Positions 5,056 to 11,616 of a DNA stretch of 40,416 nucleotides are shown here, one piece after another. The number at the start of each line of letters is the position of its first letter. Positions within the stretch are counted from its first letter, which is position 1. The translations under genes and the position numbers were made by a program. Below the pieces are notes generated by a model. The model did not search any database and was not told the origin of the DNA. It was given only the letters and a program-made list of their open reading frames with translations. Location: the IMG/VR virus record IMGVR_UViG_3300042154_002606, positions 1 through 40,416 of that record; one strand, written 5' to 3'. Source of the DNA: a virus.

Positions 5056-5199
5056 ATGGAAACAAAAAAGGCAACAGTATCTTTGTCGATTGAAGCAATT
5101 GACAGGATCAAAATTCACTTAATAAAAAAAGGCCAAAAAGCAGGTGTGCAGAACTGCATTGATTTTGCATTAAAATTCACATTTGAATTATTAAAATAA
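5056..5199 (+). CDS. Ribbon-helix-helix-like regulator at the divergent promoter
   Basis: A 47-residue protein: strand TKKATVSLS, helix IEAIDRIKIHLIKKG, turn and helix GVQNCIDFALKFTFELL, which fits a minimal RHH domain. I take ATG 5056 as the start. An in-frame TTG further upstream (5017) lies within the promoter and cannot be translated from this transcript. The stop overlaps the next ATG (TAATG), coupling it to the helicase-methyltransferase. As the first rightward gene beside a palindromic operator it is a natural autoregulator. It shares one GGCC site with the GGCC-rich gene that follows. Confidence 0.7.
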   Translation: METKKATVSLSIEAIDRIKIHLIKKGQKAGVQNCIDFALKFTFELLK

Positions 5200-7394
5200 T
5201 GGAATATAAAGAGTTTTTAGAAACAAAAAAGAAATCATTTATAGAAAGTGGTTTTGATGTTGAAAAATTAAATGAAAAATTATTTGATTTTCAAAAGTTT
5301 TGTGTAAAACGTGCTTTAAAAGCTGGCAAGTATGCACTTTTTGAAGATTGCGGATTAGGAAAAACATTTCAACAAATTGAATGGGCTTATCAAGTTTCAT
5401 TACATACAAATAAGCCTGTACTTATTTTAGCACCTTTGGCCGTAGTTGGCCAAACTATAAATGAAGGTATTAAATTTGGTGTTGAAGTAGAAGAATATAC
5501 TAATAATAACTTGTTACCAAAGATTTATATTTCAAATTATGAACAACTTGAAAATATAGACTGCAGTCTTTTTAGTGGAATTGTATTAGATGAAAGCTCA
5601 ATACTTAAAAACTATTCAGGTGCTACAAAGCAATTAATTATTGAGAAGTTTATTAATACTCCTTATAAATTAGCTTGCACAGCCACACCTTCACCAAATG
5701 ACCATTTAGAATTAGGTAATCATTCTGAATTTTTAGGGGTGATGAAATCAAAAGATATGGTTTCAACATTTTTCATAAATGATGCTTTCAATAAAGACCA
5801 TACTATTTCAAAATGGAGACTTAAAAAACACGCTGAAAAAGATTTCTGGAATTGGGTTTCATCATGGGCTTTAATGCTTTCAAAACCCAGTGATATTGGC
5901 TTTAATGATGATGGTTATATTTTACCACCACTTAATGTTTCAGAACTTGAAATTAAAGTGCCTAAACAAGATAATGGAAAATTATTTAATGATGTATCAG
6001 TTTCGGCTACTGACTTTTATAAAGAATTAAAAGTTACTCAAGCTGAAAGATGTATTAAAGTTGCTGAAATTGTTAATAATTCAACTGAAAATTATATTAT
6101 TTGGGTTAAGTCAAATGAAGAAGAAGAAGAATTATTAAAATTAATACCTGATTCTTTAAGTGTAAATGGTGGCCATAAAAATGAAATTAAAAAAGCAAGG
6201 TTAATTGGTTTTGCTAAAAATGAGTTTAGGGTTTTAATTACAAAAACTAAGATTGCTCAATATGGCCTAAATTATCAGAACTGCAGAAATCAAATATTTT
6301 TAAGTTTTGATTTTAGTTTTGAAGGTTTATACCAAGCAATGAGAAGAAGCTGGAGGTTTGGCCAAACACAACAAGTTAATATTTTACTTGTAATAGTTGA
6401 AACAATGGGCAACGTAATACAATCAATTAAGCAAAAACAATCAAAATTTGAAAATATGCAAAAGCAAATGCAAGATTCAATGAATAATTCATTTGAAAGT
6501 AAAATTGAAAACAATGGCCAATTTATTACTGAAAAAGGCGAACGTTGGGAGCAAACATTAGGTGATAGTACAGAATATACAAAAACTATTCCAACAGAAT
6601 CAATTGATTACTCAATTTTCTCACCTCCATTTAGTGATTTATTTATGTACTCTGATGATCCAAGAGATTTAAGTAATAATAAAACTTATGAGGAGTTTTT
6701 TAAACATTTTGACTTTGTTATTCCTGAATTATTGAGAATAACTAAGACTGGCCGATTACTTACAATGCATTGTACTCAATTATCAAAAAGTATTGGCCGT
6801 GATGGGTATTTAGAAATTATTGATTTTAGAGGTGACCTTATTAAGTCCATGCAAAAACATGGATGGAGATTTCATGCTGAAGTTGTGATTTATAAAGACC
6901 CTAAAATAGTAGCCCAAAGAACTAAAAACATTCAACTACTTCATGCTACTACAAAAAAAGATAGTTGTGTTAATAGGCCTGTTTATAATGATTATATGCT
7001 TTCATTTAGAAAAGCTGGGATAAATGAAAATCCTGTTAATCATGAAAAAAATGGATTACCTTTTGATTATTGGTGTAAAATAGCTGAAGGTGTATGGCCA
7101 CTTGGTGACATTGATGCAAGCGATGTAATAAATGTTAAAGATGCAAAAGCCACTAATGATGAAAAACATTTAACACCTACTCAAAAAGAACCATTAAAAA
7201 GACATTTAGAACTTTATACAAATCCTAATGATTTAGTTTATTCACCTTATTCAGGTGCTGGAACTGATGGAGTTGTTTGTCTTGAAAATGGCCGTAGGTT
7301 TAAAGGTTGTGAATTAAAAGAATCTTACAATAATTTAAGTATAAAACATTATAAAGCTGTTGATTTAAAAAAACAACAAACAACTTTATTCTAA
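5199..7394 (+). CDS. SNF2-type helicase fused to DNA methyltransferase
   Basis: A 731-residue fusion. The N-terminal half is an SF2/SNF2-like translocase: Walker A in EDCGLGKT (about 49-56), motif II LDESS (about 130), motif III CTATPSPND (about 165) and C-terminal motif MRRSWRFGQTQQ (about 380-391). A coiled linker rich in Lys and Gln follows (about 400-440). The C-terminal third is a beta-class amino-methyltransferase of the N6_N4_Mtase family: catalytic motif IV SPPF at 475-478 and, later, the AdoMet-binding motif SPYSGAGT at 682-689. SPPY/F is more usual for N4-cytosine enzymes, but N6-adenine is possible. It may modify phage DNA against restriction while tracking along it. The gene holds at least 11 GGCC sites, far above the rest of the window, suggesting separate origin. 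Confidence 0.88.
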   Translation: MEYKEFLETKKKSFIESGFDVEKLNEKLFDFQKFCVKRALKAGKYALFEDCGLGKTFQQIEWAYQVSLHTNKPVLILAPLAVVGQTINEGIKFGVEVEEYTNNNLLPKIYISNYEQLENIDCSLFSGIVLDESSILKNYSGATKQLIIEKFINTPYKLACTATPSPNDHLELGNHSEFLGVMKSKDMVSTFFINDAFNKDHTISKWRLKKHAEKDFWNWVSSWALMLSKPSDIGFNDDGYILPPLNVSELEIKVPKQDNGKLFNDVSVSATDFYKELKVTQAERCIKVAEIVNNSTENYIIWVKSNEEEEELLKLIPDSLSVNGGHKNEIKKARLIGFAKNEFRVLITKTKIAQYGLNYQNCRNQIFLSFDFSFEGLYQAMRRSWRFGQTQQVNILLVIVETMGNVIQSIKQKQSKFENMQKQMQDSMNNSFESKIENNGQFITEKGERWEQTLGDSTEYTKTIPTESIDYSIFSPPFSDLFMYSDDPRDLSNNKTYEEFFKHFDFVIPELLRITKTGRLLTMHCTQLSKSIGRDGYLEIIDFRGDLIKSMQKHGWRFHAEVVIYKDPKIVAQRTKNIQLLHATTKKDSCVNRPVYNDYMLSFRKAGINENPVNHEKNGLPFDYWCKIAEGVWPLGDIDASDVINVKDAKATNDEKHLTPTQKEPLKRHLELYTNPNDLVYSPYSGAGTDGVVCLENGRRFKGCELKESYNNLSIKHYKAVDLKKQQTTLF

Positions 7395-7402
7395 ACCTTA
7401 AT

Positions 7403-7422
7403 AGCCCCTTTAATTAGGGGCT
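7403..7422 (+). terminator. Hairpin terminator after the methyltransferase fusion
   Basis: AGCCCCT and AGGGGCT form a perfect 7-bp stem with a TTAATT loop, followed by TTTACT. The U tract is short, so it may be a weak terminator or an mRNA-end stabiliser. It lies 8 bases after the stop codon. Confidence 0.6.
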
Positions 7423-7473
7423 TTACTAAAATGAAAAGCCAAAACAAAGAGATTAAAAATATGGGTGTTTTTT

Positions 7474-7505
7474 TTTGGTAATGTAAAAGTAATTTTGTAG
7501 TATTG
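7474..7505 (+). promoter_or_regulatory. Candidate promoter for the 7505-7606 RNA
   Basis: TTTG at 7474-7477, a 20-base spacer and TAGTATTG at 7498-7505 (one mismatch to TAnnTTTG). A second candidate -7 box, TAATTTTG at 7490-7497, matches the consensus but has no -33 at the right distance. Either would start a transcript just before the first hairpin. Confidence 0.45.
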
Positions 7506-7606
7506 CAGTATCAGAGTCGAAGCTGATATAAAGAAATTGGTTAATAACCAAAAAAAGAACCCATTATTAGTAGCCTTCGACCTACTTTTAATGGGTTTCT
7601 TGTTTT
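7505..7606 (+). ncRNA. Putative structured RNA with kissing loops, or attenuator leader
   Basis: Three hairpins lie in a row. H1: TATCAG (7509-7514) with CTGATA (7523-7528), loop AGTCGAAG. H2: TTGGTTA-A-TAACCAA (7537-7551). H3: about 17 bp between 7555-7573 and 7582-7601, loop CCTTCGAC, ending in a U-rich tail (TTTCTTGTTTT). The H1 loop GTCGAAG (7516-7522) is exactly complementary to CTTCGAC in the H3 loop (7575-7581), so the loops can kiss over 7 bp. H3 with its U tail has terminator form and stops 8 bases before the next gene's ATG. It may be a free small RNA or a leader controlling that helicase. No known family recognised. Confidence 0.6.
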
Positions 7607-7614
7607 ATAAAATT

Positions 7615-9231
7615 ATGGAAATAAAACTTTATGAACATCAAAAAAAATCAATTTATGAAATTAAAAATGCTTTTTTAACTCACAGAAAAGTACTTTATCA
7701 ACTTTCAACTGGAGGAGGTAAGACTGTAGTAATGTCAGAATTTGTCAAACAATATGAAGGCGTTATATTAGTACTTGTACATCGTTCTGAACTTGTAGAA
7801 CAAACCATAAAAACATTTTTAAATTTTGGCATAGATGCAACCGCAATAACCGCAAAAGTCAAAAAAATACATGAAGCAAAAATATATGTTGCTATGGTTG
7901 AAACTTTTTACAATAGGTTGAAAAAACAAGATTTTAAACCTGATTTAATTATTGCAGACGAAGCACATCGAATGGATTTTAATAAAGTAATTGATTTATT
8001 CGATTGCAAAGTATTAGGGTTAACGGCAACGCCTGTATTATTGCAAAAGAAAAAGTTTTTCAAATGTAGGTCATGCGGTGAAGTTAATAATGATGTTTTT
8101 GATTGTCACAATGAAGAAGCTGAAGAATGGAATAGAGATGTTACAATGTCTGAATTTTATGAAACTATTGTAGTAGGTCGTTCAATTTCTGAATTAATAC
8201 AAGATAGTAAATTAGTTCAAAATATTGATTTTGTAGAGCAGTATATTAATTTAAATAATTTAAAAACTGATAACACAGGCGAATATTCAACTGCCTCACA
8301 AAATAGTGAATACAATAAACATGAAGCAGTCTTTAATGTTTTATTGAATTATAAAAAATATTGTTTAGGTAAAAAAACAATGGTTTTTAATTCAAGTTGT
8401 GAAAATAATTTAAAACTTTATGAATCATTTTCAAATGAAGGATTAAATGTAAAAATGTTCGATTCAGTAAACGAATCTGAATATACAAGACATCAAGTAG
8501 TAGAATGGTTTAAAAATGAACGTGATGCCATTTTGCTAAATGTTGGTGTCTTTACAACAGGTTTTGACGTTACCGATGTTGAATGTATAATTGTTAATAA
8601 AGCAACTACTTCATTAAGTTTATGGCTTCAAATCGTAGGTCGTGGGGCAAGAATTACAGACCATCAATACAAAGATTCATTTATTTGTATTGATGGTGGC
8701 GGTAATATTGAAAGACATAGAAGCTGGTCGTCTGAGCGAGACTGGAGCCATATATTTTATAATGGATTAAAAAAGCCAAGACGAAAAAAAGATGATGCTG
8801 TAAACATACAAGAATGTTCAGCGTGTGGACTATTGTACGATAAAAAATCTACTATTTGCCCAGAATGTGGACATGAAGAACTTCCAAAAGAAAAAAGAGA
8901 AAAGGATGAATCAAATGATATTGTTCAAATTTTGAACTCTAATCAGGTACCTGTTCCTAATGCTGAAAAAATAATAAATTATACTTTACGAAATAATGGC
9001 GATTTACATTTTGCAATTCAAATATTAATTGACCAAATTGTAAACCTATTTATTCGTCACGGGGTAAGCTATGAACTGTACCAAAAAAATAACGGAAAAA
9101 GAATTAACCAATTAATTAACGGCTGTTATTTTAAATTTTACGACAAGTTGCCAAGAACTTGCAATAGAAAAAAATCACAAATTGAAACTAAAGTAAACGA
9201 AAAACTTCAAAAATATTATGGTAAAAACTAG
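7615..9231 (+). CDS. SF2 DEAD/DEAH-box helicase with zinc motifs
   Basis: A 538-residue SF2 helicase. I place the start at ATG 7615 (MEIKLYEHQ), because an upstream in-frame TTG (7537) would translate through the RNA hairpins. Motifs: Q-type YEHQ, Walker A STGGGKT (31-37), DEAH (115-118), TATP (137-140) and VGRGAR in the second RecA domain. Two features stand out: a Cys-rich insert just after TATP (CRSC...CH, about 151-165), and a C-terminal zinc ribbon CSACGLLY...CPECGHEE. A likely role is opening DNA at the origin or during replication restart with the primase-helicase downstream, which its last 14 bases overlap. It contains no GGCC, unlike the preceding gene. Confidence 0.9.
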   Translation: MEIKLYEHQKKSIYEIKNAFLTHRKVLYQLSTGGGKTVVMSEFVKQYEGVILVLVHRSELVEQTIKTFLNFGIDATAITAKVKKIHEAKIYVAMVETFYNRLKKQDFKPDLIIADEAHRMDFNKVIDLFDCKVLGLTATPVLLQKKKFFKCRSCGEVNNDVFDCHNEEAEEWNRDVTMSEFYETIVVGRSISELIQDSKLVQNIDFVEQYINLNNLKTDNTGEYSTASQNSEYNKHEAVFNVLLNYKKYCLGKKTMVFNSSCENNLKLYESFSNEGLNVKMFDSVNESEYTRHQVVEWFKNERDAILLNVGVFTTGFDVTDVECIIVNKATTSLSLWLQIVGRGARITDHQYKDSFICIDGGGNIERHRSWSSERDWSHIFYNGLKKPRRKKDDAVNIQECSACGLLYDKKSTICPECGHEELPKEKREKDESNDIVQILNSNQVPVPNAEKIINYTLRNNGDLHFAIQILIDQIVNLFIRHGVSYELYQKNNGKRINQLINGCYFKFYDKLPRTCNRKKSQIETKVNEKLQKYYGKN

Positions 9232-11410
9232 CTTATACAACAACGTACAAAGCACAACGCCTACTCAAATATTATTAACAGATTACGTTTCTGATATTAG
9301 GCGCGGAACATGGCAAGACTTTGTAATAAATGCAAGGGTGTTTAAACAAAAAGGGGATATTGCAGGATATAAAGCAATGAAAATACAAGCGCCTTGTATT
9401 ACTGGATCTACTGTTATGAACTCAGGTAAAAAGGAATCATCAAATGTACTCGAAATGAACGGATATATTTTGATAGATATTGATTGCGATATTGATAATA
9501 CATCATTGGAACGACTTAAAAATGACAAATACACTTCTATTTTACACCGTAGCTTTGGTGGTGATGGTGTTGTTATTTTTGTGAAAATTGATAGCACAAA
9601 ATTTATAGAATCATTTGAAGGTTTGGCGCAGCACTTTTATAAAAATTATGACATAGTAATAGATGCAAGTTGTAAGAATATAAACCGATTGCGTTTTATT
9701 TCTTATGACCCTGATATTTTTACAAATGACAAAGCAAGTAGGTTTGTAGCAAAGGCAAAACCAAAAAAAGAAATTAAGGTAAAAGAATATATTTATGTTC
9801 CTTCGGACTTTAATAATATTTTGTGGCAAATTGCAAACAGACATATTGACATTTGTCAAGAAGAATATAAAAGGTACATGAGTATTGGATTTGCAATAGC
9901 GGATAAATTTGGCCATAATGGCGAAGATGTATTTCATCAAATTTGCCAGTATGGAGGCAAATACGATTATAAAAAAGCTTCAAAAGACTATTCTAACTTT
10001 CTAAAATCAGGAAATCAAGGTATAAGAATAAACACGTTTTATTATTATTGTAAGGAAGCTGGAATTGAACTTTATTCGCTCGAAACTCAACAAATAATAA
10101 GTTCGGTTAAAATAGCAAAAAGCCAGGGAAAGCCAAGTTTAGATGACCAAAAAAAGCACCTAAAGACAGTACATGACATTGATATAAATGAAGAACAAGA
10201 AGTTTTAATAAATGAACTTATTGCCTCAAATTATGACTTTAGTGATGGCGTTAATGAATCAAAAACACAACTTGACAAACTTAAAGACTTTATACTTCAA
10301 GCATACGACCCTACATTTAACACATTAACGCATGATGTATGTTTAAAAAATATAAAGATAGAAGATAAGCATGAAAACGATATGCTATTAGAATCACATA
10401 GAATAATCAACGAAAAAATAAAAATATCCGATATTAGATCCGTTTTAAATTCTTCTTGTATACCTATTGTTGACCCTATTAAAAACTTTTTTTTAAGCAA
10501 TGAATCGAATGATGAAGATATAATTGATAGGTATGCTTCATGCTTACTACCTTATTCAACTTATAATGTTTGGGCGTTTAAAAAATGGCTAGTTGGGGCA
10601 GTTCATAATTGGTGCGCAAGTGAATTTGACCCTATTGTATGTCCTTTGACTTTAGTATTAAGTGGCAGTAATCAAGGAATAGGAAAAACTTCATTTATAA
10701 GAAACCTTATGCCTAATGAATTGAAAGAATATTACGCAGAATCAAGGATTGACGGAGCCGATAAGGATTCATTAATATTGATGGCCAAAAAATTAATTAT
10801 TTTAGATGATGAATTTGGAGGAAAAGCTTTTAAAGATTCTAAAGATTACAAAGCGTTATCAGATAAAAACTTTATTGATTGTCGCCAAGCATATACCAAA
10901 AATTCAAAATCGTTTAAAAGGCGTGCAATATTAGCAGGTACGACAAATGAAAAAGACATTTTAAAAGACGTTACAGGTAATAGACGTATATTAGCTATAA
11001 ATGTAGATTATATTGATTACGACAATATGATAAGCATTGACAAAACGCAACTATGGGCGCAAGCCTATAAACTTTATAAAGAAGGTTTTGACTGGAGCGT
11101 AAGAAAAAAAGAAGACATTGAATTTTTAAAGAACTCAACTTTAGAAAATGAAATGGTTTTACCATTCGAAGATTTGTTTTTAAACTGGTTTTCTTTTGAA
11201 GAAACTACTTATTTTAATGCTAAAGTAGTGTACAATCAAGGCGAATTATTAGAAATGTTCAATAAAGAGCATAAAACACAATTTACAAAATATGAGTTAA
11301 AAGAGGTTTTAATAAAGAATAAAGCAGAATTAAAACTTTACCGAGTAAATGAAATATTGAAAAAAGGATATTTATTATACATGAAACCTTTAGATTCATT
11401 AAGTTATTGA
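9218..11410 (+). CDS. Primase-helicase (BT4734-like/PriCT-2/VirE)
   Basis: A 730-residue replication protein with three parts. The N-terminus (about 1-190) is a BT4734/VirE_N-type primase region with the acidic ILIDIDCDID motif (about 84-93) and RLRFISYDPDIF. The middle (about 200-290) looks like PriCT-2. The C-terminus is a VirE-type SF3-like ATPase: Walker A GSNQGIGKTSF (about 485-495), LIILDDEFGG as Walker B, then AGTTNEKDILKDVTGNRR with the sensor Asn and arginine finger. It should prime and unwind phage DNA. It overlaps the helicase before it and is followed at once by the iteron-rich region at 11420-11616, the usual place for the origin it would act on. Confidence 0.9.
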   Translation: MVKTSLYNNVQSTTPTQILLTDYVSDIRRGTWQDFVINARVFKQKGDIAGYKAMKIQAPCITGSTVMNSGKKESSNVLEMNGYILIDIDCDIDNTSLERLKNDKYTSILHRSFGGDGVVIFVKIDSTKFIESFEGLAQHFYKNYDIVIDASCKNINRLRFISYDPDIFTNDKASRFVAKAKPKKEIKVKEYIYVPSDFNNILWQIANRHIDICQEEYKRYMSIGFAIADKFGHNGEDVFHQICQYGGKYDYKKASKDYSNFLKSGNQGIRINTFYYYCKEAGIELYSLETQQIISSVKIAKSQGKPSLDDQKKHLKTVHDIDINEEQEVLINELIASNYDFSDGVNESKTQLDKLKDFILQAYDPTFNTLTHDVCLKNIKIEDKHENDMLLESHRIINEKIKISDIRSVLNSSCIPIVDPIKNFFLSNESNDEDIIDRYASCLLPYSTYNVWAFKKWLVGAVHNWCASEFDPIVCPLTLVLSGSNQGIGKTSFIRNLMPNELKEYYAESRIDGADKDSLILMAKKLIILDDEFGGKAFKDSKDYKALSDKNFIDCRQAYTKNSKSFKRRAILAGTTNEKDILKDVTGNRRILAINVDYIDYDNMISIDKTQLWAQAYKLYKEGFDWSVRKKEDIEFLKNSTLENEMVLPFEDLFLNWFSFEETTYFNAKVVYNQGELLEMFNKEHKTQFTKYELKEVLIKNKAELKLYRVNEILKKGYLLYMKPLDSLSY

Positions 11411-11419
11411 CAATCAACA

Positions 11420-11616
11420 TTGTAACTTGTAACCTAAAAAAAAAAATAATTGGAATCCTATATTTAAAAAAAAATATAAATGATGATGATGATTATATAT
11501 ATATATACATAGTTTATATATATTTTTAGGTTACAAGGTTACAAAACTAAAATTCAACAAGTTAGCAGGTTACAAACAGGTTACAAACAGGTTACAAATT
11601 ATGAAACAGGTTACAG
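11420..11616. repeat. Iteron-rich AT region, candidate replication origin
   Basis: GGTTACAA occurs at 11529-11536, 11537-11544, 11568-11575, 11579-11586 and 11590-11597, with a variant GGTTACAG at 11609-11616. Three of these form an exact 11-bp tandem repeat. Two inverted copies lie on the left (TTGTAACT at 11420-11427 and TTGTAACC at 11427-11434). Between the two arms is an A-tract, GATGATGATGAT and a run of alternating TA, a good unwinding element. This inverted iteron layout next to the primase-helicase gene is typical of an origin. The repeats also precede the nuclease gene, so a regulatory role is possible. Confidence 0.65.

Follow-up and report, generated by a model that had tools for sequence, protein, structure and literature searches.

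A covarying kissing-loop RNA upstream of replication, DNA-modification and homing-endonuclease genes: a candidate cis-acting leader of Flavobacterium-type phages

Upstream of a helicase gene in a viral genome (IMG/VR record IMGVR_UViG_3300042154_002606, analysed here over its whole 40,416 nucleotides, termed the window) and of many other genes in related phages we have identified a small RNA element of roughly 100 bases whose two main hairpins pair through their loops, and comparison of the sequences makes us highly confident that this kissing structure is real. RNA strand, stems, kissing pairing, promoter and position are all well supported by this comparison, and as the best explanation we lean towards a promoter-fused, cis-acting structured leader of Flavobacterium-type phages in which the 5' hairpin would dock on the tip of an attenuator.

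Architecture of the window element

The element is located on the plus strand and is preceded by a Bacteroidetes-type -7 box (7498-7505, TAGTATTG; TATATTTG in most relatives), with a possible, weak -33 element TTG (7475-7477) 20 nt further upstream. Hairpin 1 (7508-7529), with which the RNA is predicted to begin, consists of a 7 bp stem and an 8-nt loop (7515-7522, AGTCGAAG) carrying the kissing heptamer GUCGAAG (7516-7522). The terminator-like hairpin 3 (7555-7601) also has an 8-nt loop (7574-7581, CCTTCGAC), here with the heptamer CUUCGAC (7575-7581), and its U-rich tail (7597-7607, TTTCTTGTTTT) stops 7 nt upstream of the ATG at 7615, the start of a gene for a 538 aa SF2 helicase with ResIII and Helicase_C domains (7615-9231, plus strand). 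A simple terminator scan of the window called no site at hairpin 3. On the DNA level the loops AGUCGAAG and CCUUCGAC contain GTCGAAG and CTTCGAC, an exact 7-nt reverse complement just as an earlier sequence-only reading had claimed, and this loop-loop pairing, the core of that reading, is on sequence comparison also its most robust part. The same reading had placed hairpin 1 at 7509-7528, which is the correct hairpin lacking its outermost pair, and had described an architecture of three hairpins. The latter applies to the window copy, where the optional middle hairpin (7537-7551, plus strand) in the linker position is clear, and is confined to a small subgroup otherwise, as most members carry an A/U-rich single-stranded linker of about 15-20 nt which is alike among them.

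The window element folds with a minimum free energy of -30.6 kcal/mol compared to a mean of -18.1 for shuffled sequences (z -3.8), and none of 200 dinucleotide shuffles was as stable. In the predicted fold the ATG possibly pairs weakly within a separate small stem. Another hairpin on the plus strand (7404-7424, GCCCC-N8-GGGGC), located 3' of the upstream helicase-methyltransferase gene, resembles an intrinsic terminator as read from the sequence and probably separates the upstream and downstream transcription units.

Relatives and covariation of the kissing helix

Among 50,697 phage records BLASTN found no match to the window element, and relatives were reached solely by protein and pattern searches. 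Using the helicase protein instead of the RNA as query, we found seven homologues in viral contigs, five of them (L002 to L006) with the same upstream layout. The loops of L003 are identical to those of the window, L002, L005 and L006 show GTGGAAG/CTTCCAC and L004 shows GTGGTCG/CGACCAC. L008 has a shorter variant of the element upstream of its helicase gene, no element is found upstream of the homologue in L007 and none is visible upstream of the helicase of Cellulophaga phage phiSM. Dozens more members were gathered with a structure scanner and gapped patterns, and the additional loops GTGGTAG, GTGGACG, GTAGTCG, GTCGTCG, GGACTAG, GGTCAG, GTGCAT and CGGGCAGG each have their exact complement in the terminator-like hairpin, although the scanner requires complementarity and cannot itself prove the kissing pairing. 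Evidence free of this selection comes from the protein-derived homologues, the cultured phages, a pattern with free loop positions and a covariance model lacking the kissing pairs. That the loop pairing is unlikely to arise by chance had also been proposed from the window alone, and it agrees with a scan for a promoter, a hairpin and a loop-complementary terminator-like hairpin, which gave 33 matches in 13 phage records where shuffles let expect 2.2.

A particularly instructive case is one locus shared by cultured Flavobacterium phages of the genera Muminvirus and Lillamyvirus, in which mumin and snusmum carry the loops GUGGAACG/CGUUCCAC, filifjonk and snork GUGAGACG/CGUCUCAC and morran GUGAGAAG/CUUCUCAC. 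Between mumin/snusmum and filifjonk/snork the rest of the element is mostly identical despite the changed and compensated loops, and judged from these sequences the three loop pairs are a natural compensatory series. A covariance comparison with related phages, which the sequence-only reading had suggested, reveals compensatory changes in both loops across the relatives, with the kissing pairing being kept even among closely related cultured phages.

In alignment A1 (31 sequences, chosen for at least 6 complementary bases) pairing in the kissing helix reaches 99.5% and five of its seven pairs are changed on both sides; together with the stems it comprises 23 pairs with 92% of the cells paired. 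Sliding the kissing partners by 1-3 columns reduces the pairing to 35-54%, and the observed covariation was reached in none of 500 shuffles. Changes on both sides were also found in four of the five counted pairs of the hairpin 1 stem, and in hairpin 3 in all seven pairs of the outer and three of the four pairs of the inner stem. With a pattern that fixed the outer loop positions and left two per side free, AT-rich contigs gave 51 matches, 40 of them complementary, whereas GC-rich contigs, in which matches are mostly chance, gave 71 with 6 complementary. A covariance model from which the kissing pairs had been left out recovered the full 7-nt complement in 54 of 60 distinct matches compared to 0.6% when loops were swapped between members with unlike loops; some of these matches are training members and the model holds the loop consensus, so that it is the variable loop positions that are informative. 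The window itself, a member of the training set, matches the model with 68.8 bits (E 1e-10).

Hairpins 1 and 3 are both present in the minimum free energy structure of 37 of 44 members, and breaking hairpin 3 costs a median of 9.9 kcal/mol in the members folded. In nearly all members the complementarity does not continue into the bases that border the loops, so two intact hairpins dock without opening into a longer duplex. Among the stem cells G-U (37) exceeds A-C (13), which points to an RNA of this strand and disfavours a function as single-stranded DNA. Chance hairpins, or an ordinary terminator that lacks a functional loop pairing, hardly seem a credible explanation: hairpins are abundant in AT-rich phage genomes, but the compensated loops of the cultured phages, the covariation missing from all 500 shuffles and the 33 matches where 2.2 were expected all speak against it.

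Up to three copies are present per phage, as in snusmum6-1, and their loops differ. Loop sharing was seen in 0 of 32 within-genome pairs where 1.9 were expected (P 0.12), a set that contains a few likely spurious scan matches such as two on the window minus strand, so orthogonality of the loops within a genome is only suggested. In snusmum6-1 (L216, 9722-9808) a variant with an unusually large hairpin 1 loop and 8 complementary bases, GCTTCGAC/GTCGAAGC, precedes another helicase gene. The copy at 1768-1856 of L165 shows one loop mismatch (GTGGCAG/CTTCCAC), possibly a decaying or intermediate state, and its downstream gene resembles a NUMOD4-type endonuclease by appearance. L003 has a leader near-identical to that of the window, with extra sequence inserted between the leader and the end of the upstream gene (83-246 of L003 compared with 7460-7490 of the window), which suggests local gene exchange at this site.

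The sequence-only reading knew of no matching family, and Rfam 15 contains none: of its 4227 models, families of small covarying bacterial or phage RNAs to that extent comparable, not one reached the gathering threshold with the element of the window or of the relatives tested. The best match to the element scored 19.7 bits where 60 are required, the best sub-threshold matches were unrelated sRNAs and the only matches above threshold in the sequences of the relatives were two tRNAs. No described equivalent turned up in a search of the literature, and a paper on Baltic phages says nothing of terminators, promoters or non-coding RNA. A study of 224 motifs reportedly names a helicase-associated motif, ssNA-helicase, from which our element would differ, the one argument being the Rfam scan without a match. 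In a genome scan the strict pattern GGAGTGGNAGCC was found at 11 loci; almost all of them belong to unrelated organisms and are apparently chance matches, and the sole locus from Bacteroidota (Prevotellaceae) gave no model score. Searching 395 Bacteroidota genomes with the model, under strict filters and with no positive control, found none, which only suggests that the kissing-loop leader is restricted to phages.

Promoter, tail and downstream genes

A -7 box of the type TAnnNTTG is located 1-14 nt (mode 4-5) upstream of hairpin 1 in all 45 non-redundant model matches compared to 4.8% of random 26-nt windows from the same contigs; the box falls outside the covariance model, and one of the collecting patterns demanded TTTG. 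A TTG in the -33 zone is present in merely 18 of the 45. Because the box directly precedes hairpin 1 in every case, the RNA most likely begins there, and the predicted promoter of the window fits a transcript start near 7505. At the other end, of the 8 nt that directly follow the hairpin 3 stem a mean of 6 are T in the relatives, which had been chosen for a T-rich tail. The distance from hairpin 3 to the ATG is 0-29 nt, mostly 8-24 with a mode of 10-11 (8-17 nt for 38 of the 54 distinct genes), and amounts to 16 nt in the window if measured from 7598, the stem end given by the scan. Such a gap leaves no space for a second promoter, so the gene would be read only by polymerase that has passed hairpin 3, whether it started at this promoter or further upstream. 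In filifjonk tens of bases separate hairpin 3 and the ATG, and one copy in L154 has no gene nearby.

The association with a helicase gene, as previously noted, is true of the window copy, the family as a whole preceding many other genes. According to domain scans these encode SF2 helicases, helicase-methyltransferase fusions, N6 and MT-A70 methyltransferases, Prim-Pol/DUF3987, BT4734-type, Lin1244_N, DUF7833 and HTH proteins as well as many HNH/NUMOD4 and GIY-YIG endonucleases, and by these domain assignments the downstream classes are replication, DNA-modification and homing-endonuclease genes. The gene upstream of the window element (5199-7394) encodes an SNF2-type helicase fused to an N6/N4 DNA methyltransferase; its homologues in L013, L014 and L015 each have their own kissing-loop leader, and none is visible upstream of the window gene.

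Possible modes of action

Because the element lies immediately at the start codon, a leader acting in cis is favoured. In the mechanism that we infer, transcription would start at hairpin 1, and the emerging hairpin 3 would form 6-8 bp between its own loop and that of hairpin 1. The resulting compact kissing complex would clamp the tip of the terminator-like hairpin, which is placed directly against the start codon. With its long, interrupted stem hairpin 3 should be slow to fold, and docking on the pre-formed hairpin 1 might help it to form in time for RNA polymerase to stop. The downstream gene would then be expressed solely via read-through, and occupying or melting the docked 5' hairpin, or competing for its loop, would raise expression. 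Termination, the effect of docking, a trigger of whatever nature and any change in expression are thus predictions of this model. Neither alignment A1 nor the predicted folds of the members contain a conserved antiterminator or other alternative pairing, so the switch, if any, would probably be docking, a protein or timing and not a rival hairpin. Against an attenuator stand the missing switch partner of classical two-state attenuation and a U tail that is interrupted in many members, and no candidate for a trans factor acting on the leader was identified.

Intrinsic-terminator attenuators and riboswitch-like leaders share with our element a promoter, a structured 5' leader and a terminator-like hairpin right before the coding sequence, but the phage element has neither an aptamer-like conserved core nor a conserved antiterminator, its fixed feature being the covarying 6-8 bp helix between the 5' hairpin loop and the terminator tip. 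In pT181-type antisense attenuators and in RNAI/RNAII of ColE1 loop-loop pairing controls either a terminator or the folding of an RNA; their loops are located on two RNAs, whereas both are present on one RNA here. Promoter-proximal structured RNAs before terminators are also familiar from phages, namely put of HK022 and nut of lambda, whose recognition lets polymerase pass. Their pairing architecture seems to differ from that of the element, in which we noticed no boxA/boxB signature.

A comparable role here, with RNA polymerase or a phage protein recognising the kissing complex and passing hairpin 3 to give a gene set its delayed-early timing, would explain why one structure is common to several early-type genes of a single genome, why the structure is conserved rather than the loop sequence and why the A/U-rich linker is alike between members; yet we found neither a phage regulator nor any evident conserved protein-binding sequence, and we regard such antitermination as improbable. 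It is also quite unlikely that the element acts in trans as a free small RNA, about 100 nt long, with the downstream gene as a bystander. The exact framing by its own promoter and a terminator-like hairpin, which would end it, and the compact fold would suit such an RNA, but nearly all copies adjoin a start codon before many unrelated genes, and the loops as the natural surface for trans-pairing are occupied by each other and variable between copies.

We give somewhat more weight, while still considering it unlikely, to a leader that governs translation or mRNA stability rather than termination, where a sealed 5'-terminal kissing structure would protect the message and/or keep the short A/U-rich start region open or closed. 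The narrow distance between hairpin 3 and the ATG with its mode of 10-11 nt and the hairpin right at the predicted RNA start are consistent with this, and so is the precedent of T4 and its relatives, where mRNA structures keep homing-endonuclease genes silent and a hairpin over the ribosome-binding site of I-TevI, mobE and segB lowers translation initiation (PMC3014915), many of the genes found here being HNH or GIY-YIG endonucleases. Although in both cases an mRNA structure is found where a phage endonuclease gene begins, the element leaves the start codon outside, 8-24 nt past the stem in most members, and also precedes helicases, primases and methyltransferases. Moreover, the start region is not strongly sequestered in the predicted folds, and a G-C-rich stem followed by a T-rich tail is how an intrinsic terminator is built, the tail having been a selection criterion in the scans.

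Returning to the docked cis leader, the device would probably control the switch-on timing of phage genes. More tentatively, each copy might be a private loop-loop lock within a modular, phage-specific gene-control RNA, with different 6-8 bp keys preventing cross-pairing and a common factor, acting on the structure that all copies share, timing several early genes of one phage. Covariation alone seldom reveals tertiary loop-loop pairing. In the present small RNA no other part is as well conserved, and single phage genomes carry it repeatedly, ahead of replication, methylase and homing-endonuclease genes. With Muminvirus and Lillamyvirus growing on Flavobacterium sp. LMO6 and LMO9 there are culturable carriers in which gene regulation of Bacteroidetes phages is directly testable, and the apparently distinct natural kissing pairs on terminator-like hairpins are potential parts for RNA circuits.

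Apart from the leader, repeated units of the type GGTTACAAA were observed in the window (11530-11615) 3' of a gene ending at 11410, and GGTTACC repeats in Muminvirus L214 (17440-17740) in the gap 3' of a VirE-like gene. Judged from their sequence, both are likely iterons of replication origins.
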